Source of the DNA: Prevotella sp.
GTDB taxonomy: Bacteria > Bacteroidota > Bacteroidia > Bacteroidales > Bacteroidaceae
DNA: 50,098 bases
NCBI GenBank assembly: GCA_017447515.1
Contig: JAFSNG010000014.1
Span: forward strand, 1 to 50,098
Direction: 5' to 3'
Shown here: positions 4,518-48,626 of the stretch, piece after piece
How the letters are laid out: every line of letters starts with the position of its first letter
Numbering within the stretch: position 1 is the first letter of the stretch
Program-made: the position numbers and the translations under genes
Notes under the pieces: model-generated
Seen by the model: only the letters and a program-made list of their open reading frames with translations
What the model was told of the DNA's origin: nothing
Database searches by the model: none

Positions 4518-7178
4518 CTATTTTTGTATTCCGAAGTCAGCTTGTTGGGCTTCTACCTCTTGTAAAAGCTTGTTTTTCTCTGCGTCAGAGAGGGTAGAGG
4601 AACTAGATTCTCTAGATTGTCTAGAATCTCTAGATGTTCTAGAAAGGTTTGATTCCTGATAGCACATGGGCAGATCGTAAGGAATACTCTCTATTTCCAA
4701 TTCGGCAGAAGTGGGCACATGAATACCAGGGAATTGCACCTCAGCCTTAATCTTTATCTTACCAGCCTGCTTCGTGCTACGTATCAGTACAGGAGCAGAA
4801 CCCCATTCAACAGCACGCGGATTGGCATTGATACTGGCGTCGCCAATGATTTCACCTTTGCCCTCAACGGTAAAGCGGATGTTTTCTTTGGCCAAGCGAC
4901 GAACATGTCCCAAGTCATCAGTAACTTCACAGACAACGACGACGAAATCAGAACCGTCAGCCACGAGTTTTTTGCCCATTTCATCGACATAAAGGCGCAA
5001 TTTGGTACTTCTGCGCGAAGGCATCTTTTCAGTTTTACAAACCACTTTGCCATCCACGAAACCCTCAGCAACCATCTTGACGCTCTGCCAGTTCTTTTGT
5101 GTGTAACTCCAGTTACGAGCCTCGAAGAAATCCCAAGCATCCTTGAAGACGACAAGACCTTTATCCACAGGCTGTGTCCAACAATGTTCACCATCGTACA
5201 TCGTGAGGCACACGCTGTCGCAATTAGAAAAAACGGTGACGTCCTTTTCAGAGAACTGCGTCATCTCGTGGGCAATAGTAACCGTGGGCTGTTCTGTAGG
5301 TTGTTGTAGCATGGCCGCAAACATATCAAAGGCGGTCTTTTTCTGACGGAAGGCATCGTAGATACCTCCCCAGTAGGGGTCAGGGTGATAGCCACGCTGG
5401 TGGTCGAAGGGGTGCCACTGGCAACCGCCGATGAACTGACCTGTGGTATGGAACAGTTCCTGTGTAGAACGATAAAGGCTCATGGCCTGTACGAGCATAG
5501 GTCGCTCACCCCATGAACGGGAAGCGCGATTCAGATTGTTATGTGCATACCAGTCGTCTACCAATTCGCCAAACTCACGCGTAAAGATACATTGCTTGAT
5601 CTTCTTGGGGTCTCCGATGGATAAATCATCGGACGCGAAGTCATCCCCTGGCCAGCCATAGACGACGTCGTAATGTTCAGCAACACCAGCGGAATGCACG
5701 TCAGCAGCTGCTACAGGACGATAGGGATAGGGGTATTCGTCCTTCGTGATCTGTAAGGCTTTTAAGGCGAAATCCTCAGGATAGCGTGTCTCGTTGAGGA
5801 TGGGTTCCCACATTAGGACACAGGGATGATTCCTGTCGCGACGAATGATGTTGCATGTATTCTCGTGAACCTTCTCGTCCCAGCCTTTTTCCTTGTTCCA
5901 ATATTGCCAACCAGGAGTCGCTACGATGATAAAAAGTCCCATTTCATCGCAGGCATCCATAAACGATGGGTCTTGTGGATAGTGGGCTGTACGGATAATA
6001 GTAAAGCCAGCATCACGCAAGCGCTTGGCGTCTCGCCATTGCTGGGAATTAGGCAGGGCATTGCCCACATAGGCGAAGTCCTGATGGCGATTGGCGCCAA
6101 CTAACTGATGATATTTCTTGCCATTGAGATAGAAGCCAGGCTGGCGTCCTTGTGCATCATCCGTGCGAACAAATTCGAAAGAGCGGATGCCAATGCGAGT
6201 AACGCCTCCATCGAGCGATTGCTTACCCTCCTTAATGCGAGTGGTTATATGATATAAATAAGGTGTCTCAGGCGACCATAGCTTGGGGTTTTTGACGAGG
6301 AAACGCTGGGTAATGGTGCGCGCCTCGCCTGGCCTCAGGCTCAGTTTTGTTTGTTGCTGTGCCACAGCAACAGACGGAACAACGGGTGCAATGGGCGGTG
6401 TGAGGGCGTTCTCAATAGTGATGGAATGGGGCTTACTGTCGTTATTGCGTACTTCGGTATTGACGAAAACCTCAGCGCTCTTGTCGCTGATGTTGGCATA
6501 ATGGACGAAGATGCCACCACCTGCCACCTTGTTTTCCTCGAGGGCATCTGTGATGGCGACCTTGTTTTTCGCAATAAGCCATACGTCGCGATAGACGCCT
6601 CCATGATAAGCGAAGTCAAGCTGTGCCTGTTTCTTACCTGGAGGGTAGGCTTTGTCGTCGCTGTTGTCAGCGCAGATGGCGACGACACAGTCGTCACCTG
6701 CGGATAAGCCAAGAGCAGACAGGGAGACGGTAATGGGGAGATAGCCGCCTTCGTGCTCCTTGACCTTTTGGCCATTGACGTAGATGGTTTGCTTACCCAT
6801 GATGGCCTCGAAGTGGAGGGTGACGTCGCGACCTGCGCATTCCCTGGGCAGACAAAAGTGCTTGCGATACCAGGCAATGCCTTGATAGTTACGACACCCA
6901 CTAGCCTCAGCAGGCATCAATTGTACAGTATGGGGCGTAGAGACAACCTCCCACGATTTATCGTTGAAATCGGCCTTTTCTGCACCAACTACATCCCCCA
7001 GATGGAATCGCCAGCCAGCATTGAAGTTCCACACCAAGCGCCCGCTATTATCCAAAGGGAAGAGCCCAGCTACAGAGGTTTGTGCCTTTAAAGGCAAAAA
7101 GGTAAAAAGACAAAAAGGCAATAAAACAATTACCTTCTTAATACACCACCTGTTATTCGTCATTATTGTTCTCTTCAT
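4518..7178 (-). CDS. Glycoside hydrolase family 2 protein (beta-galactosidase-like)
   Basis: 886 residues with a signal peptide ending near KAQ33. Sugar-binding jelly-roll domain (about 40-205; AWYRKHFCLP), immunoglobulin-like domain (about 210-340), TIM barrel (about 345-620), then C-terminal Ig-like domains. The acid/base is Glu463 in WEPILNETRYP and the likely nucleophile Glu535 in FTREFGELVDDW, the family 2 arrangement. Substrate cannot be fixed from sequence; beta-galactoside or beta-glucuronide cleavage in pectin side chains fits the neighbours. Odd points: codons 845-857 are a run of Ser-Arg-X triplets made by the 9-bp CTAGAnnnT repeat (4603-4647), and the hydrophobic core of the signal peptide is encoded by an 8-bp tandem repeat (7093-7124). 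Last enzyme of a minus-strand series; the esterase gene ends 17 bp upstream. Confidence 0.92.
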   Translation of the reverse strand: MKRTIMTNNRWCIKKVIVLLPFCLFTFLPLKAQTSVAGLFPLDNSGRLVWNFNAGWRFHLGDVVGAEKADFNDKSWEVVSTPHTVQLMPAEASGCRNYQGIAWYRKHFCLPRECAGRDVTLHFEAIMGKQTIYVNGQKVKEHEGGYLPITVSLSALGLSAGDDCVVAICADNSDDKAYPPGKKQAQLDFAYHGGVYRDVWLIAKNKVAITDALEENKVAGGGIFVHYANISDKSAEVFVNTEVRNNDSKPHSITIENALTPPIAPVVPSVAVAQQQTKLSLRPGEARTITQRFLVKNPKLWSPETPYLYHITTRIKEGKQSLDGGVTRIGIRSFEFVRTDDAQGRQPGFYLNGKKYHQLVGANRHQDFAYVGNALPNSQQWRDAKRLRDAGFTIIRTAHYPQDPSFMDACDEMGLFIIVATPGWQYWNKEKGWDEKVHENTCNIIRRDRNHPCVLMWEPILNETRYPEDFALKALQITKDEYPYPYRPVAAADVHSAGVAEHYDVVYGWPGDDFASDDLSIGDPKKIKQCIFTREFGELVDDWYAHNNLNRASRSWGERPMLVQAMSLYRSTQELFHTTGQFIGGCQWHPFDHQRGYHPDPYWGGIYDAFRQKKTAFDMFAAMLQQPTEQPTVTIAHEMTQFSEKDVTVFSNCDSVCLTMYDGEHCWTQPVDKGLVVFKDAWDFFEARNWSYTQKNWQSVKMVAEGFVDGKVVCKTEKMPSRRSTKLRLYVDEMGKKLVADGSDFVVVVCEVTDDLGHVRRLAKENIRFTVEGKGEIIGDASINANPRAVEWGSAPVLIRSTKQAGKIKIKAEVQFPGIHVPTSAELEIESIPYDLPMCYQESNLSRTSRDSRQSRESSSSTLSDAEKNKLLQEVEAQQADFGIQK
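4603..4647. repeat. CTAGAnnnT 9-bp tandem repeat, five units, in coding DNA
   Basis: Units on the plus strand: CTAGATTCT, CTAGATTGT, CTAGAATCT, CTAGATGTT, CTAGAAAGG, with no spacing between them. They lie in frame near the 3' end of the GH2 gene and encode LSRTSRDSRQSRES. The triplet at positions 6-8 of each unit varies while the CTAGA core does not. Confidence 0.9.
7093..7124. repeat. 8-bp tandem repeat in signal-peptide codons of the GH2 gene
   Basis: GGCAAAAA, GGTAAAAA, GACAAAAA, GGCAATAA in direct succession. On the coding (minus) strand it is T-rich and encodes the hydrophobic core LLPFCLFTFLP of the signal peptide. Confidence 0.65.
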
Positions 7179-8691: not shown

Positions 8692-8718
8692 TTTTTCCGT
8701 TTAATCCGTTCAATCTGT
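8692..8718. repeat. 9-bp tandem repeat at the GH106 stop codon
   Basis: TTTTTCCGT, TTAATCCGT, TCAATCTGT in direct succession. The GH106 stop codon (8710-8712 on the minus strand) lies in the third unit, and the array runs up to the start of the esterase gene. Confidence 0.55.
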
Positions 8719-11700
8719 GGTCGTTATAATTACCGGTGGTTCAAGGAGGCCTGCAGGCAATAATCCTTCACCCTTCGTGCGATACTTGGCATTCGTCCAA
8801 ATACCTTCGTAGGGCGCTTTGCCAAGATCTTCGCCTCGCAGGGCATTATGCCAAGTGTTCACCACCTCGATTTCTATCGTATTTTTGCCCTTTTGCAAAG
8901 CACCAGTAATCTCTACCTCGTAGGGAGCCATCCACGCAATGCCGCAATCCTTGCCATTAATCCATACGTGGGCGATATCCTTCACGTTGGGGAACGACAA
9001 CCAAGTGCGCCCCTGAGGAACTTCGTTCTTTTTCAGTTTCCACGTCGTCGTGTAACGCGCGTGACCACTGAAATAGCGAATCCTGTCGTCTGCATGTTGG
9101 CTCCAGTCGAAGAGCGACTGGCTCTTGATGGTTAAGCCTGCCTCTCGGAAGGTGATAGTCCAAGGCTCGCTATTTATTCCCAGCGTGGGAATGTTTTGTT
9201 CCCAGCGTGGGAAAATTTTATTCCCAGCCTGGGAATATTCGCTTTGCCGGTAGCTCACAAACAACGAGCCGTAAGCAGGCAATGTGATGGTGTCTTGATA
9301 GTCGTACGATTCATCCGTTAGGGGATTGTAAACCAACGCTTTTCCTTTGTGCTCTGACCCAGAAGTCAGAGTGTGGCAAGCAATTTCACGGAAAACAGGT
9401 GAGAAAGTCTGCTCTTGGTTCGTTTGGTTCGAGAGAAAATAAATGTCTTCACCTTTTCCTGTACGATGAGCGTAGGCAATGCCTTCAGGTAGAATGACGT
9501 CTGGTGCAACTTTCTCAAAAGTGCTATCCTTGTAGGGCTTGTCAACAATCTGAACGCCTTGTCTGCGCAGTTGGGCTATGCGTTTCTTGGCTTCTGGAGA
9601 AACCAGAACCCATTGGGGAACAACCAATACCTTATAATTAAAGGGCTGATTGAGCAGGGCATCCTTGTTCATCGAGTCGTACTGATAGCCGTGAAGTGGA
9701 TTGATCCAGTCCTTTAAATCGACGATTCCAACGGAATGTCGCACGCCAACAGGCGATTCCTCCATCGGCTGGCCGACATTGGCCAGTCGTTTGCGTTCGG
9801 AGGCCACTCGTTCCGCACCAAACAAACCAGGCAACATTGGTACAAGGCGGTCTGGAGTAAAGGCACGACAGGGCATTTCTTCCCCAATATAGACGGCTAT
9901 GTCGATAACTGGCTTGCCCTTTTGTAGGAGTGTTTGACAACGGGTGATATAATCCACAAAAGGCTTTGCCTCAGGGAACCAAATCTGGTCGCGCTGAAAA
10001 AAAAGGCCGATTCCATCGAGCGTCATGCCTGGTTTGCGGTCGAGCCAAGGGTTGTGGGTATTCACGTGGAAGAAGAGACGATTCATGCCAAGGGCGAAGT
10101 TCCTATCCAATAACGCCTTGATACTTGCTGGTGTCTCGTCCCACACACCACGCACTTCAGTAAAACCTTCTGCTTGGATAATATTCTTCCCATAGACGTG
10201 AGCCCCGCTGATGGCGTCGAGCATATCGGTGGGTTTGTCGTGGGTAGGAGAATTCAACCAAAACTCACCCATAGGCACGTCAACATACTTAAAATGTTCC
10301 ATTCCATCGGAAACCATCGTGGGCGCAACGCTCTCTGATGACAACTGCACACCATATTCTTTGGCCTTTTGGGCAATGGTGACGAAGAACACCTCGTTCA
10401 CCAGTTCATTGATGGTCTTGCGAATGTCTCTTAGCGTCTCTTCTGCCCCCATCATAGGAACACCAGCATAGACGGGCAGGAGGGGAATGATATCATAGCC
10501 TCGCCTGCGCACAAACTCCTGGGCAAAGTTTCGGCTCCAGTTTTGCGAACCACACTCCCATGAGTCGACGTGCAGATACTTAACAACTTTGTGGTTTGGA
10601 CGATTCATAAAGAGCCCAAACCAACGGTCTACTTGTTTGCTGACAGCCTTACGAGAGAATTTGTCGCATTCCAAGCCCTTTGCCCCACCAGCTGTAGCAT
10701 TAGTATGCCCCGTTGAGGTATGGCCCATTCGCAGGATGCGCCAAGTGCCTTCAGGCAACTCCACGTCAACGTAGTCGCCTTGCATCTTGAATGGTTTGAT
10801 ATCTCTAGGGTGCAGGAAATCTTCGTAGGGCAGGTCAATATCTGGCGTCTCTGGGGCTATGCGCCAAACGTAACCGGCCTTGCCTTCCCAGTTGTCGATG
10901 AGTGGCCAACTGCCAAACTTGATGCCCTTCAGTCGCAAAACGGGTTTCCACTTGGCGGCATCCAGGTCTTCGGCACCAGGTTCCGAACCTTCAGGCGTCC
11001 ATTCCATACGCACATACTTCACCTTACAGGGAGGAATGGAGAAAGTTGTATTAAAGTCTGTATTTTGCCAACCCTGACGAGGAGGCGTCAACTGCTTGAC
11101 AGTCTGAAAGATAACTCCGTCGTGCGACGCCTTTATCGTTAGTCGCTGACATTGGATATTGGTGCCTGAGGGTTCTATCTCGATATTTCGCACCAACGTA
11201 GGTTTGTCGAATTCGTACTGAATCCAGCAAGGTTCGTCAGCACATAGCACCCCCTTGGCGTTTATTTTGACCTCAGGAGAATAAGATAGAGAGCCTTTGG
11301 GATAACCCAAGGACACAGTAACAGGAATGGCATATGCCGCAATATCCTCATAGTAATGTTCGTAGTGCTGAGGCTTTTGCATGAGGAAATGGTGTTTGCC
11401 TCCAGTGACGACGGTATCGCAGAAGACAACCTTCTGCATGGATTCTTCTGGTGAAATCCAAGGTCCGCCAGCGAGTGCAAAACCGTCGCAGACGTGAATG
11501 CCCATTTCCAAGCTGAGGGAATCGGCTTGCGCGAACGAGTAGTCCACCATTCGCCAAAAGTTCTCACTCAAGGTATCAGCCGTTCCTTGATATTCTGGTC
11601 GTTCTTGTGACCCACGAATAGGCATCAGGTAACAGCCACCCAGTCCCACATCCTTCATCGCCTGCAGATCGGCCTTAATGCCTACTTCTGATACGGCGCC

Positions 11701-11799
11701 ATACATCCAATACCAGAAAGTCCAAGGACGAGTCGTGTCGTTACCTCGCGACATAATTGCGAGGCACAGGACAAGAGCAAGTGTGGTCAGTCGTTTCAT
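8710..11799 (-). CDS. Glycoside hydrolase family 106 protein (alpha-L-rhamnosidase)
   Basis: 1029 residues, signal peptide MKRLTTLALVLCLAIMSRG. The opening RPWTFWYWMYGAVSEVGI, with a following ADLQAMKDVGLGGCYLMPI, is the hallmark of GH106 alpha-L-rhamnosidases. The catalytic barrel continues through HVDSWECGSQNWS and the region around NIIQAEGFTEVRG, which carry acidic residues in the places where the family keeps its catalytic glutamates. A C-terminal beta-sandwich ends with HVWINGKDCGIAWMAPYEVEI. Length is normal. GH106 enzymes release terminal rhamnose from rhamnogalacturonan-type pectins. An internal array of three 15-bp palindromes (9177-9235) encodes residues around NKIFPRWEQNIPTLGIN, a linker-like stretch before the last domain. 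GH2 lies 37 bp upstream and the esterase 20 bp downstream in the same direction. Confidence 0.88.
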   Translation of the reverse strand: MKRLTTLALVLCLAIMSRGNDTTRPWTFWYWMYGAVSEVGIKADLQAMKDVGLGGCYLMPIRGSQERPEYQGTADTLSENFWRMVDYSFAQADSLSLEMGIHVCDGFALAGGPWISPEESMQKVVFCDTVVTGGKHHFLMQKPQHYEHYYEDIAAYAIPVTVSLGYPKGSLSYSPEVKINAKGVLCADEPCWIQYEFDKPTLVRNIEIEPSGTNIQCQRLTIKASHDGVIFQTVKQLTPPRQGWQNTDFNTTFSIPPCKVKYVRMEWTPEGSEPGAEDLDAAKWKPVLRLKGIKFGSWPLIDNWEGKAGYVWRIAPETPDIDLPYEDFLHPRDIKPFKMQGDYVDVELPEGTWRILRMGHTSTGHTNATAGGAKGLECDKFSRKAVSKQVDRWFGLFMNRPNHKVVKYLHVDSWECGSQNWSRNFAQEFVRRRGYDIIPLLPVYAGVPMMGAEETLRDIRKTINELVNEVFFVTIAQKAKEYGVQLSSESVAPTMVSDGMEHFKYVDVPMGEFWLNSPTHDKPTDMLDAISGAHVYGKNIIQAEGFTEVRGVWDETPASIKALLDRNFALGMNRLFFHVNTHNPWLDRKPGMTLDGIGLFFQRDQIWFPEAKPFVDYITRCQTLLQKGKPVIDIAVYIGEEMPCRAFTPDRLVPMLPGLFGAERVASERKRLANVGQPMEESPVGVRHSVGIVDLKDWINPLHGYQYDSMNKDALLNQPFNYKVLVVPQWVLVSPEAKKRIAQLRRQGVQIVDKPYKDSTFEKVAPDVILPEGIAYAHRTGKGEDIYFLSNQTNQEQTFSPVFREIACHTLTSGSEHKGKALVYNPLTDESYDYQDTITLPAYGSLFVSYRQSEYSQAGNKIFPRWEQNIPTLGINSEPWTITFREAGLTIKSQSLFDWSQHADDRIRYFSGHARYTTTWKLKKNEVPQGRTWLSFPNVKDIAHVWINGKDCGIAWMAPYEVEITGALQKGKNTIEIEVVNTWHNALRGEDLGKAPYEGIWTNAKYRTKGEGLLPAGLLEPPVIITTTD
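9177..9235. repeat. Three 15-bp palindromes at exact 22-bp period within the GH106 gene
   Basis: TTCCCAGCGTGGGAA at 9177-9191 and 9199-9213, and TTCCCAGCCTGGGAA at 9221-9235. Each has 6-bp perfect arms around a 3-bp centre. Spacers are 7 bp and AT-rich. Because 22 is not a multiple of 3, each copy is read in a different frame. Confidence 0.9.
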
Positions 11800-17082: not shown

Positions 17083-17117
17083 AACTTTCAACTTTCAATT
17101 GTTAACTTTCAACTCTT
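17083..17117. repeat. AACTTTC 7-bp tandem repeat spanning a stop codon
   Basis: AACTTTC, AACTTTC, AATTGTT, AACTTTC, AACTCTT in direct succession. The stop codon of the unknown gene (17109-17111) lies inside it, and the array runs towards the GH3 start at 17063. Confidence 0.75.
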
Positions 17118-17759
17118 AAAGTACACCTTCAGCTGCTCGGCATAGTCGGCCAACTGTCGCGTGTCGATGTTGCCATAGCGTTGCCAAATCTGCTGACAGG
17201 GCAGCAACAACGCACTGAACGTCACGTCGCGACGGCGCAGATAAGGGTCGCAGTGCTGGTACACGTCCAATATCTCTACCACCAATTTGGCAGGGATGCG
17301 CAACAGGCGCGCCAATTCCTGCACCTCAGGGGTTTCAGCAACCATCGTGATGGGTGTCAGACGAAAATAGAGGTCGAGCGTCACCACGAGCATGATGGGC
17401 GTCAGGCGTTCGTCCTCGCTGATGGGACGGAAGTCGCGCTCGAAAGTTTCCTGCACGTCGACACCCTCAAAGAAATCGCCTCCCGAGTTGAACCCAATCA
17501 TCTGGCGCAGCAGCTTGACAGCACGGCTCAGACGACGCGGATTCTCGCCATACTCCTTCCAGATGCGCTCTATGCGGGGAGTACGCAGGCGCGCTATGTC
17601 GCCCAGTCTCTCGTGAAGCACCTCCGGATGGATGTGCAGTTCCATACTGAGGTTCACCATTTCGCGGTCGTACGTCGGTTTCATACCTGTCGGCTTGCGC
17701 AGGTATTGTTGCATTAGCAACAGCCAATAATCGTCTTGCCAGGGTTGTTTTGTTGCCAT
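17109..17759 (-). CDS. Conserved protein of unknown function
   Basis: 216 residues from the ATG at 17759 (MATKQPWQDDYWLLLMQQYL). A frame open further upstream to 17942 runs through the divergent promoters and the neighbouring gene and is rejected. No signal peptide or membrane segment; it looks mostly helical and cytoplasmic, with many Arg and Leu residues (TPRIERIWKEYGENPRRLSRAVKLLRQM). I believe similar proteins occur across Bacteroidales but know no named domain or function. It lies directly upstream of the glycoside hydrolase series on the same strand, so co-transcription is possible; the content does not look like a classical DNA-binding regulator. It is divergent from the histidine phosphatase pair. 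Confidence 0.75.
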   Translation of the reverse strand: MATKQPWQDDYWLLLMQQYLRKPTGMKPTYDREMVNLSMELHIHPEVLHERLGDIARLRTPRIERIWKEYGENPRRLSRAVKLLRQMIGFNSGGDFFEGVDVQETFERDFRPISEDERLTPIMLVVTLDLYFRLTPITMVAETPEVQELARLLRIPAKLVVEILDVYQHCDPYLRRRDVTFSALLLPCQQIWQRYGNIDTRQLADYAEQLKVYFKS

Positions 17760-17835: not shown

Positions 17836-19158
17836 ATGAGAAAAATCTTGCTTTGTGCCATCCTGACGGTCATGGCCGTGGGCATCGAGGCACAGAGTAT
17901 ACGCGAGGAAATTCGCGACAATATCCGTTGCTCGGCCGGCAACTATCTGGCTTACCCGGAACCTGCGCAGTTGAAGCTGACGCCTGCTCCCGAGGGTAAG
18001 CACCCCTTCTATATCAGCCACTACGGACGCCACGGCTCGCGCTATCTCATCGGGGCCAACGACTACGAGGCTCCCTACGCCGTGATGGCCGAGGCCGACA
18101 GTCTGGGCAAGCTGACTCCCTTGGGCAAGGACGTGGTGCAAAGGCTGGACATCATCCGCAAGGACGCTCACGGCCGCTACGGTGAGCTGACGCGTCTGGG
18201 TGCCCTGCAACACCAGCAAATCATGCGACGCATGGTCGACCGCTTCCCTGAGGTCTTTGCCGAGGGGGCAGACGTCGATGCCCGCAGCACGACGTCGCTC
18301 CGCGTATTCCTGTCGATGGAGAATGCCATGATGCAGCTCTCGCGCATGTGTCCGAAGGTATTCATCCACCACAACGCCACCCAGCGCGACATGTACTACT
18401 TGTGCGGTTCCGACCCCCGTCTGGAGGCGTTGAAGCAGGATTCGGCCACACAGGCACTGCTCACCACCTTCAGCCAGCGTTACGACACCAGCAGCCGCCT
18501 GATGCAGTCGCTGTTCAACGATACGGCCTACGTCCGGCAGCACATCGATGCCGACAAGTTCAGCAACAGCCTCTACGAACTGGCCAACAGCCTGCAAAAC
18601 ACCGACCTCAGCCTGCGGATGACACTGTACGACCTGTTTACCGACGACGAGCTGTACGACTACTGGAGGAAGGGCAACGCGTGGTGGTATGTCAACTACG
18701 GTTTCTGTCCCGCAAGCGGCGGCAGTCAGCCCTACTGCCAGCGAACCCTGTTGCGCAAAATCATCAACGACGCCGATGTCAGCATCCAGCTGAAACAGCC
18801 TGGCGCCCAGCTGCGCTATGGTCACGACACGATGCTGCTGCCGCTGGTGTGCCTGCTGGAAATCATTGCAGCGCCACACTCTCAAAGAGAGAACCGTTTC
18901 GGACTGGCCACCGCCGACCTTGAATCGCTCGACCGCAAGGGCTGGGCCAACTACAAGGTCATCCCGATGGCAGGCAACCTGCAGCTTGTGTTCTATCGCA
19001 GCAGTCCCGACGACACGGACGTCGTCGTCAAGGTGCTGCTCAACGAGAACGAAGTCCAGCTGCCGCTGAAGAACCACCATGGGCCCTACTACCTCTGGCG
19101 CGACTTCCGCGAATACTATCTAAAGAAACTTGACGCGTATGAGGAAAGTGAGAAGTGA
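17836..19158 (+). CDS. Histidine-type phosphatase, GHD type (first of tandem pair)
   Basis: 440 residues. The ATG at 17836 gives the signal peptide MRKILLCAILTVMAVGIEAQ; the frame is open further upstream through the promoter, which is not used. The phosphoryl-accepting motif of the histidine acid phosphatase clan is SHYGRHGSRYL (RHGSR at 65-69, nucleophile His66), and the distal motif is RYGHDT with His330-Asp331. These enzymes, including periplasmic phytases and inositol polyphosphate phosphatases, cleave phosphomonoesters by a phosphohistidine route. The second copy has Glu in place of the distal Asp. The 3' end overlaps the next gene by 20 bp, and the stop codon TGA lies inside a GTGAGAG repeat. 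GC content is visibly higher than in the neighbouring glycosidase genes. Confidence 0.9.
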   Translation: MRKILLCAILTVMAVGIEAQSIREEIRDNIRCSAGNYLAYPEPAQLKLTPAPEGKHPFYISHYGRHGSRYLIGANDYEAPYAVMAEADSLGKLTPLGKDVVQRLDIIRKDAHGRYGELTRLGALQHQQIMRRMVDRFPEVFAEGADVDARSTTSLRVFLSMENAMMQLSRMCPKVFIHHNATQRDMYYLCGSDPRLEALKQDSATQALLTTFSQRYDTSSRLMQSLFNDTAYVRQHIDADKFSNSLYELANSLQNTDLSLRMTLYDLFTDDELYDYWRKGNAWWYVNYGFCPASGGSQPYCQRTLLRKIINDADVSIQLKQPGAQLRYGHDTMLLPLVCLLEIIAAPHSQRENRFGLATADLESLDRKGWANYKVIPMAGNLQLVFYRSSPDDTDVVVKVLLNENEVQLPLKNHHGPYYLWRDFREYYLKKLDAYEESEK

Positions 19159-20572
19159 GAGGTTAGAGGTGAGAGGTGAGAGATTACTCTCAGTACTCGC
19201 AGTAGTGCTCTTGGCACTTTCGGCGTGGGGACAGGTAAGCGTGTCGGAAGGCCAGCCGCTGTCGGCCTTCGAGAAGATTCGCCAGAACCGCAACTTCTCA
19301 GCCAGCAACTACTGCATCTATCCCGACAGCACGCTGCCCGCACTGACCCCTGCTCCCGAGGGCAAGAAGCCCTTCTACATCAGCCACTACGGACGCCACG
19401 GCTCGCGCTATCTCAGCAACCGCAAGGCCTACGACATACCCTACCGCATGCTCTGCCGTGCCGACAGCCTCGCACTGCTCACCCCGACAGGCAAGGACGT
19501 GCTTAGCGAACTGCGCCACATCATCGACGACTCCGAGGGACGCTGGGGCGACCTCACGGGACTGGGCAAGCGGCAGCACCGCCAGATAGCCTGCCGCATG
19601 GTGGAACGCTTCCCCGAGGTGTTCAGCGACGGTGCCTACGTCGACGCTCGTAGCACCACCGTCACGCGTTGCGTGCTCTCGATGGGTGCCGCTGTCCAGC
19701 AGCTGGTGGCCCTCAATCCGCGCCTGGACGTCACCATGCGCGCCTCGCGAAAGGACATGTGGTATATGAACCACCAGGACACGCTGCTGCGCAACAGGAT
19801 GGAGACCCCCGAGACCCGGCAGGCCTTCAACGCCTTCTGCCAGCCGCTCATCGGCAACTACCGCCTCATGCAGATGCTGTTCACCGATGTGGACGCCGCA
19901 CGGAAGGTGCTCGACGGCTGCGTGGCCACCCTCCAGCCGCGAAACGGCGAGCAATGGCTCAATTACTACCTGCTCTTGTCGGCTCTCATCCAGCAGAACA
20001 CGCGCATGAGCGAGCGGTCGCAACTCGTCGACCTCTTCACCTATGAGGACATCCACTGCTTCTGGCAGTGCGAGAATGCGTGGTGGTACGCCAACTACGG
20101 CCCTTCGCCACTCAACGGCGGCGACCAGCCCTACTCCCAGCGTTACCTGCTGCGCCACATGATCCACGAGGCCGACAGCTGCTTGCGACTGCCGCGCCCG
20201 GGAGCCTCGCTGCGCTTCGGCCACGAGACCGTCATGCTGCCGCTGACCTGCCTGCTGGGCATCAACGGCTTCGACTTCCAGACCGCTGACCTCGCCGCCC
20301 TCGAACCCAACGGCTGGTGGGCGTGCCTCGTATTCCCCATGGCATCGAACATCCAGCTCGTGTTCTACCGCAGCAGTCCCGACGACAAGGACATCGTCAT
20401 CAAGGTGCTGCTCAACGAACAGGAGGCTACGCTGCCCGTTCCGACAGACATAGCCCCCTACTACCGTTGGCGCGACTTCCGCGACTACTACCTCCGCCGG
20501 CTCGATTCTTACGAGAGAGGTCGAAGGTCGAAGGTCAAAGGTAAGAGATTACTTCCGACATCTTCCATCTAA
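19139..20572 (+). CDS. Histidine-type phosphatase, GHE type (second of tandem pair)
   Basis: 477 residues from the ATG at 19139; a TTG at 19130 would add three residues. It is a paralogue of the preceding gene: SHYGRHGSRYL (nucleophile His87), and CENAWWYANYG is close to the equivalent NAWWYVNYG. The distal motif is RFGHET with His362-Glu363. Glu at this place is typical of the multiple inositol polyphosphate phosphatase branch, whereas Asp is typical of classical acid phosphatases and AppA phytases, so the two copies may differ in mechanism or substrate. The n-region of the signal peptide (RKVRSERLEVRGERLL) is encoded by a 7-bp repeat, and the C-terminal basic tail (RGRRSKVKGKRLL) by another, so both ends of the protein are repeat-derived. 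Confidence 0.88.
   Translation: MRKVRSERLEVRGERLLSVLAVVLLALSAWGQVSVSEGQPLSAFEKIRQNRNFSASNYCIYPDSTLPALTPAPEGKKPFYISHYGRHGSRYLSNRKAYDIPYRMLCRADSLALLTPTGKDVLSELRHIIDDSEGRWGDLTGLGKRQHRQIACRMVERFPEVFSDGAYVDARSTTVTRCVLSMGAAVQQLVALNPRLDVTMRASRKDMWYMNHQDTLLRNRMETPETRQAFNAFCQPLIGNYRLMQMLFTDVDAARKVLDGCVATLQPRNGEQWLNYYLLLSALIQQNTRMSERSQLVDLFTYEDIHCFWQCENAWWYANYGPSPLNGGDQPYSQRYLLRHMIHEADSCLRLPRPGASLRFGHETVMLPLTCLLGINGFDFQTADLAALEPNGWWACLVFPMASNIQLVFYRSSPDDKDIVIKVLLNEQEATLPVPTDIAPYYRWRDFRDYYLRRLDSYERGRRSKVKGKRLLPTSSI
19148..19182. repeat. GTGAGAG 7-bp tandem repeat across the overlap of the phosphatase genes
   Basis: GTGAGAA, GTGAGAG, GTTAGAG, GTGAGAG, GTGAGAG. It contains the TGA stop of the first phosphatase (19156-19158) and is translated in the second phosphatase as its basic signal-peptide n-region. 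Confidence 0.85.
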
Positions 20573-27779: not shown

Positions 27780-27866
27780 AACTCTTAACTCTTATTTTCC
27801 TAATTCTCACCTTCGACCTTCGACCTTTGACCTTTGACCTCAGACCTTTGACCTTTCATCCCTCAC
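27780..27866. repeat. 7-bp tandem repeats filling the ftsQ-ftsA spacer
   Basis: AACTCTT twice (27780-27793), then CTTCGAC, CTTCGAC, CTTTGAC, CTTTGAC, CTCAGAC, CTTTGAC (27811-27852) and degenerate CTTTCAT, CCCTCAC to 27866. The ftsQ stop codon (27863-27865) is inside the last unit. On the mRNA the array is purine-rich and ends about 6 bases before the ftsA ATG. Confidence 0.9.
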
Positions 27867-28606
27867 CTCTTCTTGCAGATGATCTGATTGTCAAACTCCA
27901 AACTGATGTAGGAATACTTGTTCCAGCCAGCCTTGCTCAGACCATACTTGTAGAACTTCTCCAGACGCTCCAGCTTGCGAGCAATGCCGGTGGGCTGACC
28001 TAGGTAGACAACATGGTCGCCAACACGCGGAACCAGCTCCAGCGAGCCGTCGGACAGCACGTTGAGCTGCTCCACCTGCGAACGCCATATCTTATGCTGG
28101 ATGAGGTAGTTGCCGACAGGGGGCAACACCCGCTTGGCATACTGCTTCGTCACGTGACCCGTCACCACCACCAAGTCGCTGGCGTGCTGGGTGTTGGGCA
28201 TGATGTTGCCGTGCGTGTCGACATAGTAGTCGTCGCCGTTGTCGGCCTTCACACGAGCCACGGGAAGGCGTTGCGTCAACTTGATGAAGACACGGCCCGA
28301 CTGCGTCTTGTAGCACTGCGCACTCTCCACGAAGGCATTCTTCACCAGCGCCTCCTCGATGCGCCGCGCCGACACCTGACTCATCGGGTCGCCTAACGGA
28401 TAGAGGCGCGCATGTTGCAACTGATGCTTGATTTCGTCTGGAGTCAGAAATCCCTTCACCTCACCTTCCGCAATGTCGATTTTCACCTCTTTACACACGT
28501 CGGAAAGCTCGTCAGGACGGTTGAAAGCCGTGATGGCAAGAACCAGATAGACCGCCAGCACGGTGTCTATCAGGATGATGAATGATTTCTTCCAATTGAC
28601 GTTCAT
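27863..28606 (-). CDS. ftsQ: Cell division protein FtsQ
   Basis: 247 residues. One N-terminal membrane segment (about 9-28, FIILIDTVLAVYLVLAITAF) is followed by a periplasmic part with a POTRA-like region (about 40-115, VKGFLTPDEIKHQLQHARLY) and a beta domain ending DNQIICKKR. FtsQ links the early and late division proteins in the periplasm. Sequence conservation is low in this family, and the call rests on topology, size and the position between murC and ftsA. The start ATG at 28606 lies 44 bp after the murC stop, in a repeat-filled spacer. Its own stop is inside another repeat. Confidence 0.92.
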   Translation of the reverse strand: MNVNWKKSFIILIDTVLAVYLVLAITAFNRPDELSDVCKEVKIDIAEGEVKGFLTPDEIKHQLQHARLYPLGDPMSQVSARRIEEALVKNAFVESAQCYKTQSGRVFIKLTQRLPVARVKADNGDDYYVDTHGNIMPNTQHASDLVVVTGHVTKQYAKRVLPPVGNYLIQHKIWRSQVEQLNVLSDGSLELVPRVGDHVVYLGQPTGIARKLERLEKFYKYGLSKAGWNKYSYISLEFDNQIICKKR

Positions 28607-28612
28607 ATCGTT

Positions 28613-28661
28613 CTCTTAATTCTTACCTCTTACTTCTCACCTCTTACCTCTCACCTCTTAT
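28613..28661. repeat. 7-bp tandem repeat filling the murC-ftsQ spacer
   Basis: CTCTTAA, TTCTTAC, CTCTTAC, TTCTCAC, CTCTTAC, CTCTCAC, CTCTTAT in direct succession. The murC stop codon (28651-28653) is inside it. On the mRNA the unit reads GTAAGAG or GTGAGAG and leads up to the ftsQ ATG. Confidence 0.9.
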
Positions 28662-32491: not shown

Positions 32492-32527
32492 CTAGAGTTT
32501 CTAGAATATCTAGATTATCTAGAGATT
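32492..32527. repeat. CTAGAnnnT 9-bp tandem repeat, four units, in the murD-ftsW spacer
   Basis: CTAGAGTTT, CTAGAATAT, CTAGATTAT, CTAGAGATT. The murD TAG stop (32519-32521, minus strand) is formed by the CTAG core of the first unit met by transcription; the other units lie between murD and ftsW. Confidence 0.9.
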
Positions 32528-33850
32528 CCTCGCTAATTCCTTAAACTGCTCACCTCTGTCTTCCATATTTTTAAAGAGGTCGAACGACGCACAACAGGGT
32601 GACAGCAACACCGTCATACCCGGCTCGGCCATCTCGTAACAGGCGGCCACGCAATCCTTCATGGAGTGCGTGTCTCGAACAGGAATGCCCAGTGAGTCGA
32701 AATTATCGTGCAACTTCTGGTTATCAGCCCCCAGATAAACCAGCCCGGCACACTTCTCCTTCACCAACGGCTTGATTGGCTCGTAGTCATTGCCCTTATC
32801 CTTACCACCAATAATGAGGATAGTCTTGGTCTTCATCGACTCCAATGCATACCAGCACGCATCGACATTGGTGGCTTTCGAATCATTGATATACTGTACG
32901 CCACGAACGGTGCACACCTTCTCCAAACGGTGCTCAACGCCCGGGAAATCGCTCAACGACTTACGGATGACCTCTTTCTTGATACCTGCAACATCTGACG
33001 CGATACCTGCAGCCAGCGAGTTGTAGATATTATGTTTTCCTGTCAGACTCAGCGACTCCTGTTCCATATTAAACGGTTCGGGTTTTTCAATCTTATACTG
33101 CCCTTCCTCGATATAACCGATACTGCCCTTTTCTTTCAGTTCAGAGAATGGATACTGTATGGCCTTAATGTCATACTTCTCCAGTTCCCTCTTGATAATC
33201 GGGTCATCATTCCAATAAATGAAAGCATCCTTCGGCGTCTGATTTCGAATGATGCGCATCTTGGCATCGACATAGTTCTGCATCTTGAAATCATAGCGGT
33301 CCAGATGGTCGGGCGTGATATTGAGCAAAATGGCAACATTGGCCCGGAAATCATACATATTGTCGAGCTGGAAAGAAGACAACTCGATAATGTAATATTC
33401 ATGCGGATCCTCAGCAACCTGCAGGGCTAACGAGTTTCCAATATTACCTGCCAGACCGGCATCATAGCCTGCCTCCTTGAAGATATGATAGATAAGGCTC
33501 GTCGTCGTTGTCTTACCATTTGAACCTGTAATACATATCATCTTCGAGTTGGTATAGCGACCGGCAAACTCAATCTCACTGATGATATGAATGCCTTTCT
33601 CCTTGATTTTTACAATCATCGGAGCCGTATCAGGAATACCCGGACTCTTGATGACCTCGTCGGCATCCAGAATTTTCTCTTCCGTATGATGTCCTTCCTC
33701 CCAGCTAATCTGGTGGTCGTCCATCAACTTCTTATACTTATCGTTGATTTTCGACATGTCACTGACAAACACGTCGAAACCTTGCTTCTTGGCCAGAACG
33801 GCAGCTCCTGCTCCGCTCTCTCCTGCTCCTAATATAACTATCTTACTCAT
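32519..33850 (-). CDS. murD: UDP-N-acetylmuramoyl-L-alanine--D-glutamate ligase MurD
   Basis: 443 residues. It adds D-glutamate to UDP-MurNAc-L-Ala. N-terminal GAGESGAGAAVLAKKQGFDVFVSD, P-loop CITGSNGKTTTTSLI near residue 110, TPDHLDRYD and the C-terminal PGVEHRLEKVCTVRGV followed by INDSKATN are all diagnostic of MurD. Complete and of normal length. The stop codon TAG is part of the 9-bp repeat array. The start is 2 bp from the mraY stop, so translation is probably coupled. Confidence 0.98.
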   Translation of the reverse strand: MSKIVILGAGESGAGAAVLAKKQGFDVFVSDMSKINDKYKKLMDDHQISWEEGHHTEEKILDADEVIKSPGIPDTAPMIVKIKEKGIHIISEIEFAGRYTNSKMICITGSNGKTTTTSLIYHIFKEAGYDAGLAGNIGNSLALQVAEDPHEYYIIELSSFQLDNMYDFRANVAILLNITPDHLDRYDFKMQNYVDAKMRIIRNQTPKDAFIYWNDDPIIKRELEKYDIKAIQYPFSELKEKGSIGYIEEGQYKIEKPEPFNMEQESLSLTGKHNIYNSLAAGIASDVAGIKKEVIRKSLSDFPGVEHRLEKVCTVRGVQYINDSKATNVDACWYALESMKTKTILIIGGKDKGNDYEPIKPLVKEKCAGLVYLGADNQKLHDNFDSLGIPVRDTHSMKDCVAACYEMAEPGMTVLLSPCCASFDLFKNMEDRGEQFKELARNL

Positions 33851-40872: not shown

Positions 40873-41697
40873 ATGGGACAGATCACAGAAAAAACCATTG
40901 ACATTGATCAGATACTAAAAAACAAAATGGGAACCAAAGCCAAGTGGGTTCCTGGTTTCTTGGTGTCATGGCTCAAACGCATTGCCCATCAGGACCAGGT
41001 GAATGCTTTTCTTTGGGGGGCTCGTGACAAGGTAGGTACCCCTTGGCTCGAAGCCTGCATAGAGTATCTGCAGATAACACTCAAGGTAGAAGGAATAGAA
41101 AACCTGCCCGCCAAAGATGACGGACGGCTTTATACCATCGTGTCAAACCATCCTCTGGGTGGTATTGATGGTGTCGCGCTTGGAACGATTATAGGACGGC
41201 ATTACGACTCCCGATTCCGCTATTTGGTCAACGACCTCTTGATGTACCTCCCTGGACTTGCTCCACTCTGCATCCCTATCAACAAAACTGGACACCAAAG
41301 CCGTAACTTCCCTGCTATGGTGAAGGCTGGCTTCGAAAGTGACAACCACATGTTGATGTTCCCTGCCGGCATCTGTTCACGTCGTAAGAACAAGGTCATC
41401 AGAGATATTCCTTGGTCGAAGACGTTCATATCAAAGAGCGTAGAATACCAGCGCGACGTCGTACCCGTCCATTTCAGCGGACAGAACTCCAATTTCTTCT
41501 ACCGCCTGGCCAATTTCTCCGACCGTTTCCTGCCTTTCAACTTGGCCATGCTTTTCCTCGTTGACGAGATGTATAAGAACGTCGGCAAGACTTTCGAGGT
41601 TAAAATTGGAAAACCGATTCCCTGGCAGACCTTCGACAAGAGCAAGACTCCATTGGAATGGGCACAATACGTACAAGACCAGGTCTATAATCTCTAG
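40873..41697 (+). CDS. glsA: GlsA-type O-acyltransferase of glycine-lipid synthesis
   Basis: 274 residues. A lysophospholipid acyltransferase-like protein with the catalytic motif written HPLGGID (His93 to Asp99, HX5D rather than the usual HX4D) in VSNHPLGGIDG, and a second block FPAGICSRR near residue 165. Together with the GNAT gene that follows, it corresponds to the glsA/glsB pair that makes N-acyloxyacyl glycine lipids in Bacteroides thetaiotaomicron. GlsA adds the ester-linked second fatty acid. The order glsA-glsB and the 52-bp spacing suggest co-transcription. The gene ends NL-stop with its TAG supplied by the first unit of a CTAGAnnnT repeat. Divergent from mraZ. Confidence 0.88.
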   Translation: MGQITEKTIDIDQILKNKMGTKAKWVPGFLVSWLKRIAHQDQVNAFLWGARDKVGTPWLEACIEYLQITLKVEGIENLPAKDDGRLYTIVSNHPLGGIDGVALGTIIGRHYDSRFRYLVNDLLMYLPGLAPLCIPINKTGHQSRNFPAMVKAGFESDNHMLMFPAGICSRRKNKVIRDIPWSKTFISKSVEYQRDVVPVHFSGQNSNFFYRLANFSDRFLPFNLAMLFLVDEMYKNVGKTFEVKIGKPIPWQTFDKSKTPLEWAQYVQDQVYNL

Positions 41698-41720
41698 GAA
41701 ATCTAGATCCTCTAGAACAT
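41694..41720. repeat. CTAGAnnnT 9-bp tandem repeat, three units, in the glsA-glsB spacer
   Basis: CTAGGAAAT, CTAGATCCT, CTAGAACAT, followed by a further CTAG. The glsA stop TAG (41695-41697) is in the first unit. The last nine coding-end bases AATCTCTAG are the same as at the end of murD. Confidence 0.9.
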
Positions 41721-41749
41721 CTAGTTAACAACTATAATAACTTCAAACA

Positions 41750-46332: not shown

Positions 46333-46368
46333 AACTTCCTTAACTTCTCTAACTTCTTTAACTTCCTA
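46333..46368. repeat. AACTTCnnn 9-bp tandem repeat in the spacer before dgt
   Basis: AACTTCCTT, AACTTCTCT, AACTTCTTT, AACTTCCTA. The stop TAG of the helix-hairpin-helix gene (46366-46368) is the end of the last unit and is followed by GAATTCC. On the mRNA the unit is purine-rich (AAAGAAGTT). Confidence 0.8.
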
Positions 46369-47277
46369 GAATTCCACATACGGTTCCAACCGCCGAATAG
46401 CCTCCGGCGGGAAATCCTTCGACAAACGCAAATCGTCCAAACTCGCAATCTTCCCATGCAACCGGCGATAGTCGACAATGATCTTGGCCTGATAATAATT
46501 AATGTATGGATGCTTGCGCAGTTGTTGTAGCGTCAGCTTATTGACGTTCAGCTTCTTGGGCGAAGCACCCTGAATCACGAAATACTTCTTCGACTCTTGC
46601 GGGAAACCCTCTATTTCGTCCAGCTGGTCAATACTGACATAACCACCCAACCATTGCCCATGACGCACTATTTCCTTAGCATAATAAGTCCCAATACCAG
46701 GTACTGTCCGCAACTGCGCCGTATCAGCGGTATTCAGCACAACATGCTCGTTCTCCTTTATCTTAACGGGATAGTGCAGGCTAGAATCCCTAGGCTCTCT
46801 AGAGTCTCTAGAAGCTCTAGAATATCTAGACTCTCTATATTCTACTACCGTCGCCGCCGGCAGATAATCGCTTGAAATCTGGATATAAGGTTCCAACTCG
46901 CGATACTGCTTGACGGTCAGTCCATAGAGCTGTGCAAAATCCTCTTTCCGCCTATAGACACCCCCCTTCGCCCTGTATTTATAGATGTTCTTCACCTGCC
47001 ATGGCTGCAGTCCCAACCTCAGCAATTGCGTACTATCAGCTGTATTGGGGTCAAACGGAAACCGCTCTACAGAACGGCTTTCCACCGCATAATAGGAATT
47101 ACTAGAATCTCTATTCTCTCTAGAACCTCTAGACAATCTAGATTCTCTAGAATATCTCGTTTCCTCATCACCTTCTGTCCGCGTCGGCGGGTTTCCCCCG
47201 CCGAGCCATATCCCCACCAGCGCCAACACTCCGACGCACACCGCTGCTATCGCTACCTTTCGGTCATTCCGATTCAT
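46366..47277 (-). CDS. Helix-hairpin-helix (ComEA-like) protein with repeat-derived Ser-Arg linkers
   Basis: 303 residues. One N-terminal membrane segment (about 9-26, AIAAVCVGVLALVGIWLG), then helix-hairpin-helix units: FDPNTADSTQLLRLGLQPW (about 74), LNTADTAQLRTVPGIGTYYAKEI (about 176-200) and LNVNKLTLQQLRKHPYINYYQAKII (about 243). Such modules bind DNA without sequence specificity; ComEA receives DNA in competence, but that role is not established in Bacteroidales. Two linkers, about residues 41-58 (YSRESRLSRGSRENRDSS) and about 147-163, are Ser-Arg-X runs encoded by CTAGAnnnT arrays. Both separate folded parts, so the repeat seems tolerated only in linkers. The start overlaps the stop of the transporter gene by four bases (ATGA), implying translational coupling. 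Confidence 0.85.
   Translation of the reverse strand: MNRNDRKVAIAAVCVGVLALVGIWLGGGNPPTRTEGDEETRYSRESRLSRGSRENRDSSNSYYAVESRSVERFPFDPNTADSTQLLRLGLQPWQVKNIYKYRAKGGVYRRKEDFAQLYGLTVKQYRELEPYIQISSDYLPAATVVEYRESRYSRASRDSREPRDSSLHYPVKIKENEHVVLNTADTAQLRTVPGIGTYYAKEIVRHGQWLGGYVSIDQLDEIEGFPQESKKYFVIQGASPKKLNVNKLTLQQLRKHPYINYYQAKIIVDYRRLHGKIASLDDLRLSKDFPPEAIRRLEPYVEF
46781..46843. repeat. CTAGAnnnT 9-bp tandem repeat, seven units, in coding DNA
   Basis: CTAGAATCC, CTAGGCTCT, CTAGAGTCT, CTAGAAGCT, CTAGAATAT, CTAGACTCT, CTATATTCT. In frame in the helix-hairpin-helix gene, encoding ESRYSRASRDSREPRDSS. Confidence 0.92.
47102..47155. repeat. CTAGAnnnT 9-bp tandem repeat, six units, in coding DNA
   Basis: CTAGAATCT, CTATTCTCT, CTAGAACCT, CTAGACAAT, CTAGATTCT, CTAGAATAT. 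Second array in the same gene, encoding RYSRESRLSRGSRENRDSS. The two arrays share the core but differ in most triplets, so they are not a recent simple copy of each other. Confidence 0.92.
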
Positions 47278-48626
47278 ACCACACCCAATTGATGCAAAAA
47301 AATCAGCATAATACAGATAGGACAGACATACCGCACGGCAAAGAGGAAGATGCTAAAGAACCTACCACTTACCTGCTCATTATTCGTAAACTCACTGCGC
47401 ACCACCTGTTTCGGAACATACCAACCAACAAACAAGCACGTCAGCATACCACCTAATGGCAACATGACATTGGCCGTCAACTGGTCGCAAAAGCCCATCA
47501 GCGGATGTCCCATCAGCTGCAGTTCTTTGTAGGCACCTACCGACAATGCACAGAACACACAGATAACCGATGCCACTACCGTTATGATACAGGCCGCCTT
47601 GGGACGGGATATGTTAAACTCCTCTGTGAAGAATGCCGTCCCGATTTCGTGCATCGAGATGGTTGATGTCAATGCAGCAAATACCAATAGCGCATAGAAC
47701 ATCACCCCGATGATATACCCCGAAAAGGGGAAACTGGCGAAAGCCTGCTGAAACACGTTCGGCAACGTGATGAATATCAATGACGGTCCGGAATCGGGAC
47801 TCACCCCCACCGACGCTGCAGCAGGAAATATCATCAGTCCTGCCAGAATGGCTATTGCCGTGTCTAACACCACAATCTGTCCTGCCGAATTCAGCAGGTT
47901 CGTTTCCTTCGTGAAATAGCTGGCATACGTACACAAAACGGCTGTACCTAATGACAGCGAGAAGAATGCCTGTCCCAAAGCCTCAAGCAACATTTTACTG
48001 CTCACCTTCGAGAAATCAGGCATCAGCAAAAACCTCACGCCCTCTATCGCTCCTGGCAACATACACGAAGCCAAGACAATGATGAGGAGCAGTATCAAAA
48101 GGATGGGCATCAGCAATTTCGAAGCACGTTCTATACCGCTTTTCACCCCACGCACCACTACCAAATCTGTCAGCAGTACGAAGCCCACACCCCATAACAC
48201 GGGTTTCAACGCATCGCTGGAGAAAGAAACAAAGTAGTTCTTCACATATTCCGCATCACCACTCAGCTGCCCGACCACAGAAGCATACAGGTATTGCAGA
48301 CACCAGCCCGCCACCACGGCATAAAAACCCAGAATAATCGTCGCCGTCAGTATACCCAGATAGCCCACCAACTTCCAAGGACGACCACCGCTGAGCTTAT
48401 CGTAGGCTCGGGCAGCATTGGCCTGTGCATGGCGGCCTATGATAAACTCACTCACCATACCAGGCAGTCCCAATATCAAGATACACCCTATATATATAAG
48501 TATAAAGGCTGCGCCGCCATTCTCACCAGTCATATAGGGGAACCGCCACACGTTTCCCAGTCCGACGGCCGATCCTGCCGTAGCCAGCACAATGCCAACC
48601 TTACTGCCAAAACTCCCTCTCTCCAT
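47274..48626 (-). CDS. Neurotransmitter:sodium symporter family transporter (second of tandem pair)
   Basis: 450 residues with about 11-12 membrane segments and the LeuT fold. The N-terminal GSKVGIVLATAGSAVGLGNVW with RFPYMTGENGGAAF is the family signature; the unwound TM1 (AGSAVGLGNVWRFP) forms substrate and Na+ sites. Further family stretches are PSLIFITLPNVFQQAF and SMHEIGTAFFTEEF. It should take up an amino acid or related amine with Na+. It is a close paralogue of the upstream gene (spacing 37 bp) and overlaps the next gene by 4 bp. Confidence 0.95.
   Translation of the reverse strand: MERGSFGSKVGIVLATAGSAVGLGNVWRFPYMTGENGGAAFILIYIGCILILGLPGMVSEFIIGRHAQANAARAYDKLSGGRPWKLVGYLGILTATIILGFYAVVAGWCLQYLYASVVGQLSGDAEYVKNYFVSFSSDALKPVLWGVGFVLLTDLVVVRGVKSGIERASKLLMPILLILLLIIVLASCMLPGAIEGVRFLLMPDFSKVSSKMLLEALGQAFFSLSLGTAVLCTYASYFTKETNLLNSAGQIVVLDTAIAILAGLMIFPAAASVGVSPDSGPSLIFITLPNVFQQAFASFPFSGYIIGVMFYALLVFAALTSTISMHEIGTAFFTEEFNISRPKAACIITVVASVICVFCALSVGAYKELQLMGHPLMGFCDQLTANVMLPLGGMLTCLFVGWYVPKQVVRSEFTNNEQVSGRFFSIFLFAVRYVCPICIMLIFLHQLGVV

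Follow-up and report, generated by a model that had tools for sequence, protein, structure and literature searches.

Some rumen Prevotella genomes carry dozens of short arrays in which the tetranucleotide CTAG recurs at a 9 bp pitch, and within these arrays CTAG is under strong purifying selection at the DNA level, in noncoding gaps as well as in coding sequence, where two frames are used. Bases that adjoin CTAG are less strictly constrained, the three central bases of each spacer (NNN) drift approximately as silent sites do, and between sister species the arrays are kept as wholes, though their length often changes. Of the explanations put forward in a preliminary description of this DNA, a protein-binding array now reads best: in our judgment there is about an even chance that purifying selection maintains the arrays as double-stranded DNA sites acting in cis and read by a putative CTAG-specific protein.

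The window (the whole 50,098 nt stretch analyzed) comes from a Prevotella sp. genome, here called G000, of which 1.92 Mb was analyzed (61% complete). It contains five CTAG arrays, all of which lie where the preliminary description had placed them. The first (bp 4603–4647) has five CTAGs at 9 bp pitch and lies inside an 886 aa ORF (4518–7178, − strand) for a glycoside hydrolase family 2 (GH2) protein, where it is read in the Ser-Arg-X frame near the C-terminus. The second (bp 32492–32527; four CTAGs) fills the gap between murD and ftsW, and its CTAG at 32519 contains the TAG stop codon of the murD-like gene (32519–33850, − strand). The third (bp 41694–41724) occupies a gap between two + strand genes and starts where an acyltransferase gene (PF19576; 40873–41697, + strand) stops, the stop codon of that gene lying within the first CTAG; the array had been counted as three units, but there are four CTAGs (41694, 41703, 41712, and 41721). 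The last two arrays lie in one ORF of 303 aa (46366–47277, − strand) that encodes a helix-hairpin-helix protein (HHH_3, PF12836), and both are in-frame Ser-Arg-X stretches, one in a linker (bp 46781–46843) and the other in the N-terminal linker (bp 47102–47155). The seven and six units that had been reported for these two are six and five intact CTAGs, respectively, plus one CTAT in each. The genes that host or neighbor the window arrays are those for the GH2 glycoside hydrolase, murD, ftsW, the acyltransferase, an acetyltransferase, and the helix-hairpin-helix protein. The closest named relatives of the latter are in uncultured rumen-type Prevotellaceae MAGs RUG14561, RUG443, RUG12019, and RUG405, with best segments 87–89% identical. 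The window also has a 22 bp tandem repeat in three copies (bp 9173–9239) inside ORF 8710–11799 (− strand), near the 3′ end of that ORF.

CTAG is rare in this DNA outside the arrays, as had been supposed. There are 32 CTAGs in the window against a Markov expectation of 75.5, and 24 of the 32 are inside the five arrays; in a 187 kb sample of G000, made up of the window and stretches picked because they carry arrays, 109 of 140 CTAGs sit in 23 arrays, and the concern that CTAG might simply be common everywhere does not hold for this genome. At four thresholds, tandem arrays of all periods numbered 10, 10, 5, and 4 in the window and 0 in each of three Markov-resampled windows. The preliminary description had suggested scanning the genome for further arrays, and such a scan of G000 gave 43 overlapping forward matches to a three-unit TCTAGA-N3 pattern and none to the reversed pattern.

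Among 301 genomes of the family, four TCTAGA units were found in 23 and four CTAGs at 9 bp pitch in 82, the latter spread over 12 of 30 genera; the reversed control matched two genomes, once each. Four-unit CTAG arrays are absent from the other 219 sampled genomes, so any function that they have must be dispensable or replaceable. In a scan of the phylum with the four-unit CTAG pattern only, 3 of 395 genomes matched, G000 among them. The reversed control of that scan, four GATCs at 9 bp pitch, gave up to 26 matches per genome in a distant family of the phylum (f18; G834, G998, G1060, and others), which may represent an independent array class. A phage origin for the CTAG arrays is not supported: 27 of 2.9 million IMG/VR contigs match, 21 of them with only three units, and bp 46600–47300 of the window had no match among 50,697 phage records.

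The sequence around CTAG differs between species in the manner of dialects. The palindromic core TCTAGA, which had been taken as the conserved element, is indeed common in G000 (90 of 109 intact array CTAGs), but the true invariant is CTAG, and the flanking bases are a property of the species: ACTAGT makes up 63 of 94 array CTAGs in G500, and G377 uses both ACTAGT and TCTAGA. The five bases between CTAGs are mostly ANNNT in the G000 species and TNNNA in another. When covariation of the flanking bases within the palindrome was set against covariation across the spacer, one pair dominated within single-dialect genomes. Long runs are preferred, and pairs scarce, only to a modest extent; in ten genomes of the genus, 258 of 347 runs of at least two CTAGs have at least three units, compared with some 225 expected under a geometric distribution of equal mean. 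Four CTAG pairs at 10 bp distance were seen in G500 outside the 9 bp arrays and are perhaps a pitch variant.

Orthologous arrays from the sister species G683, G552, and G585, and from G544 (two stretches), were compared both among themselves and to those of G000. The reference arrays had been selected for having CTAG, and the spacers of the same arrays serve as the control. In the 38 of 97 ortholog pairs that are equal in length, CTAG differs at 18 of 716 bases, the flanking bases at 18 of 358, and the triplets at 90 of 411, counts that are not independent over the 38 pairs; in the 13 closest of them, whose flanks are 94% or more identical, CTAG and NNN differ less sharply (8/232 and 17/132). 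The pairs represent five genomes, all closely related, and their number is small once cut to one per locus, a set that keeps the 20 of 30 locus groups with an equal-length pair and drops ten. In this reduced set, internal CTAGs differ at 1 of 176 coding and 1 of 60 noncoding bases and terminal CTAGs at 3 of 104 and 2 of 56, while spacer triplets differ at 48 of 168 and 12 of 63; the bases next to CTAG have an intermediate rate in coding loci (8/112) and no differences in noncoding ones (0/42). The gene calls are greedy longest ORFs, which in G683 (L134) misplace the helix-hairpin-helix gene, so that one of its two arrays appears inside an antisense ORF and the other as intergenic. Because of this misclassification, a test restricted to strictly noncoding loci was made, and in the six such loci CTAG differs at 2 of 96 bases, triplets at 11 of 51 (Fisher p = 1.7e-4), and inner flanking bases at 0 of 34.

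Between G000 and G585, divergence at the first, second, and third codon positions is 7.6, 2.8, and 26.8%, respectively; thus, the spacers change about as silent sites do and CTAG is about as strict as second codon positions. The spacers differ at 20 of 81 bases in eight pairs of G000 with a sister, a rate like that of third codon positions, and the triplet diversification that the preliminary description had entertained is accordingly rejected: what stands out between sister species is the near absence of change in CTAG. That description had also allowed that simple inheritance might account for the arrays; they are indeed inherited between sister species, but the triplets have drifted and are not identical.

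The placement of the arrays relative to genes was surveyed in G000, G683, and G500, where, of 65 arrays, 36 fall within ORFs and the other 29 in intergenic gaps. Of the intergenic arrays, 28 lie in codirectional or convergent gaps and one has a neighbor on one side only; none of the 29 lies between divergent genes. Eleven of the 29 absorb the stop codon of a neighbor as the TAG of the terminal CTAG, all of them in G000 and G683 and none among nine in G500, and part of the 29 end near a downstream start. Placement in ORF interiors and in codirectional and convergent gaps, with no array in a divergent one, suggests that the arrays may serve chromosome architecture as a whole and not the control of promoters.

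Arrays within ORFs are translated on the sense strand as Ser-Arg-X or Leu-Glu/Asp-X, and in G500 mostly as Thr-Ser-X. It might therefore be supposed that selection acts on the protein, favoring Ser-Arg-X or Leu-Glu/Asp-X linkers, since so many arrays are in frame inside ORFs. In other species the linkers of the helix-hairpin-helix protein also carry three-residue repeats, encoded by other 9 bp repeats and reading Pro-Thr-X, Gly-Ala/Thr-Asn, or Thr-Ser-X (L178:10125–10207, L180:10420–10484, and L190:10103–10179). Such selection is nevertheless hardly credible as the explanation of the arrays: it is contradicted by the noncoding arrays, two frames are in use among 16 coding loci (5 and 11), and third codon positions that fall within CTAG show next to no change (3/84).

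Retention of whole arrays was scored as any signal of the same period in the target, and by this measure CTAG arrays were retained in 97 of 100 sister comparisons (both directions counted), with 51 of 52 reference arrays kept in every sister compared. In the same genomes and again in both directions, control arrays of period 7 were kept in 53 of 91 cases, those of period 8 in 28 of 43, and other period-9 arrays in 6 of 12. Individual CTAGs behave according to where they lie. In four genome pairs, array CTAGs were kept in 67/75, 82/85, 87/93, and 51/54 cases (89–96%), and isolated CTAGs in 4/19, 10/37, 8/31, and 1/10 (10–27%); eight other palindromic tetramers were kept at 36 to 85%. Since isolated CTAGs are lost and array CTAGs kept, the tetramer has no intrinsic protection against mutation.

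These comparisons bear on the idea that the arrays are neutral degenerate minisatellites, in which slippage yields 9 bp units seeded at TAG or CTAG that are then blurred by point mutation, with the period-7 and period-8 arrays made likewise. Copy number does vary between relatives, as it would for a VNTR: 59 of the 97 ortholog pairs are unequal in length, 28 by a multiple of 9 and 31 otherwise, in segments that include some flank. In some sister arrays (groups 5 and 6) a neighboring spacer is doubled or tripled. The same genomes commonly carry volatile period-7 and period-8 arrays; degenerate period-7 arrays lie in the window at bp 17083–17119, 19146–19182, 27809–27870, and 28613–28660 (units such as ACCTTTG and AGGTGAG), and such arrays are often missing at the orthologous site in a sister species. 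The near-identical neighboring units of a VNTR are, on the other hand, not a feature of the CTAG arrays. Neighboring triplets match exactly in 1 of 66, 2 of 58, and 1 of 53 pairs in three genomes, no more often than the means of 2.5, 2.0, and 1.4 obtained by shuffling, and the preliminary description, which saw the triplets as separate draws, was right to the extent that adjacent ones are not copies. They are not wholly separate, however: triplets of one array share more bases than triplets from different arrays, which points to some common origin or composition, and those two units apart are identical in 4/43, 2/38, and 4/31 cases against shuffled means of 1.7, 1.3, and 0.8 (the third genome is G500, 0.83). 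We disfavor the neutral minisatellite and consider it unlikely, as it does not account for the far lower divergence of CTAG than of the spacers (noncoding loci included), for the retention of CTAG arrays where period-7 arrays are often lost, or for isolated CTAGs being unconserved, which shows that CTAG is not simply a mutational cold spot.

Slippage-like arrays are seen in G299, a near-complete genome of about 40% GC in which CTAG is common and the arrays have repeated spacers and near-identical neighboring units. The minisatellite reading gains from this genome, and the strict pattern must accordingly be a property of some lineages; at the same time, the slippage-like arrays together with the abundance of CTAG in most of the sampled stretches make G299 no model for the window genome. 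Among the matches listed, its arrays lie at 1.21–1.90 Mb of a 1.98 Mb contig, most of them at 1.60–1.71 Mb, and GC skew sampled at 20 positions pointed clearly to neither an origin nor a terminus. Three places in G299 (C3:1520449, 1623911, and 1670199) have an identical order of spacers, two of them in the other orientation, as if an array-bearing element had been copied.

Sites of CTAG arrays can also hold other arrays. In one gap G683 (L137:3091) and G585 (L264:13417) have a CTAG array and G552 (L245:5632–5666) has an 8 bp array of ATAACGNN, with flanks about 94% identical, so an array site can pass to another class. The murD–ftsW gap, compared at 30 loci (G000 and the next 29 of 386 matching genomes), contains TCTAGA-type arrays, an ACTAGT array, other 8 and 9 bp arrays, a 7 bp array, or almost no gap at all. 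Both the presence of other arrays or none in the murD–ftsW gap of related species and the 8 bp array in place of a CTAG array in one sister are evidence against the reading of the arrays as sites for a CTAG-specific protein. The ATAACGNN class resembles a fixed core with a free doublet, and one Prevotella MAG has dense 9 bp arrays of other cores, ATAAGTCCT, GGAGTTAAA, and CCATCAGTC (L198:2894–2987, 4534–4763, and 9884–9994).

The 8 bp array found where sister species have a CTAG array would also fit an insertion process in which each added unit is CTAG plus a 5 nt filler, with CTAG duplicated like a target site and the fillers random from the start. Adjacent fillers are not copies of each other, and the outer base of the terminal CTAG is less uniform than the inner one (most clearly in G500, where the right outer base is T in 7 of 22), as if the unit were CTAG+WNNNW. 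Yet the outer flanking bases diverge between sisters no differently from the inner ones (4/84 and 14/274), so that the unit may instead be a hexamer; the fillers are recognizably homologous between sister species and drift, and a site with a single CTAG was seen in none of the 97 ortholog pairs. The conservation of CTAG in old units would also be left unexplained, and we consider this process very unlikely.

As single strands the arrays fold well, with a mean MFE of −13.8 kcal/mol for 21 arrays and −3.3 kcal/mol for shuffled sequences, and four-unit arrays fold into a rod of two 6 bp helices. It is therefore conceivable, if rather unlikely, that the arrays act as RNA, the units in mRNA forming a rod of 6 bp helices with 3 nt loops that would shield transcripts or help to process them, in operon gaps and at the ends of genes, much like REP elements. 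Their absence from divergent gaps and the greater uniformity of the inner flanking bases would fit such a role. Under a pairing constraint, changes on the sense strand that preserve G-U pairing (TTAG, CTGG) should be more frequent than those that break it (CTAA, CCAG); with convergent-gap arrays excluded, 17 compatible and 24 incompatible changes were counted, a small sample that gives no support for RNA pairing as the constraint. In addition, more than half of the arrays surveyed lie in ORFs, and free pairing would leave unexplained why each species uses one flanking pair (T-A or A-T) genome-wide.

We prefer the reading as double-stranded DNA sites. A sequence-specific protein, probably a dimer, would bind the runs of CTAG, perhaps cooperatively; binding by one such reader would explain the fixed pitch, why isolated CTAGs survive poorly, and, if reader and site co-evolve, the species dialect. 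Slippage or recombination between units would generate new ones, whose spacers would drift afterwards. More tentatively, and with less than even confidence, the arrays may constitute a DNA address system in Prevotella and its relatives, in which a chromosome-wide protein reads CTAG runs of 9 bp pitch in species dialects, isolated CTAGs are purged, and other classes such as the 8 bp ATAACGNN arrays are perhaps read by sister proteins able to take over sites. Should a reader exist, rumen bacteria would have a DNA-binding system that is new and acts chromosome-wide, and the dialects would allow the specificity of the reader to be followed by genome comparison. Bacterial short tandem repeats are mostly taken for slippage noise or phase-variation switches; here one repeat class has a strict DNA-level constraint on a four-base word, for which the period-7 and period-8 arrays, volatile in the same genomes, provide a control.

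No description of CTAG nonamer arrays turned up in searches of one open-access library; several known systems share features with them. In the met-box arrays of MetJ and the operators of TrpR, a dimer binds tandem palindromes cooperatively at a short fixed pitch, and TrpR recognizes CTAG; these are promoter operators of a few genes, with a pitch of 8. The CTAG arrays resemble such operators in having a conserved recognition word at fixed pitch, and differ in numbering in the tens and in lying away from divergent promoters (0/29 in divergent gaps). The SlmA and Noc sites of nucleoid occlusion and the DNA-uptake sites (DUS) occur as tens or more of dispersed single sites per genome, also within genes, and have dialects between species; the CTAG arrays are like them in number, dispersal, and dialects, and unlike them in being tandem arrays rather than single sites.

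In Salmonella, CTAG is reported to be rare and partly conserved, and stem-loops have been proposed for intergenic CTAG sequences (PMC5337935). The main text of that study does not use the word "tandem," whereas the Prevotella arrays are tandem, and in the Prevotella genomes compared here isolated CTAGs are unconserved and array CTAGs conserved. REP palindromes are described as 20–40 bp elements dispersed at gene ends, in GTAG- and CGTC-tagged families (PMC3733652). The CTAG arrays likewise are dispersed palindromic DNA at gene ends; they differ in consisting of 9 bp tandem units that are often inside ORFs (36/65), although as single strands they fold well. The nearest known system is that of the TAACTGA heptamer direct repeats reported from Beggiatoaceae, Cyanobacteria, and some Bacteroidetes, with 169 sets in one genome (MacGregor 2015, PMC4679880). 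Like the CTAG arrays, these form many short tandem sets per genome, are patchy across taxa, have an unknown reader, and in some cases overlap stop codons or lie in the ends of ORFs. They are, however, as described in that paper, repeats of an exact heptamer that mostly lie just upstream of start codons and were proposed to be a translational signal, whereas the CTAG arrays have a pitch of 9, only CTAG fixed, free spacers, and flank dialects, and lie inside ORFs in 36 of 65 cases.
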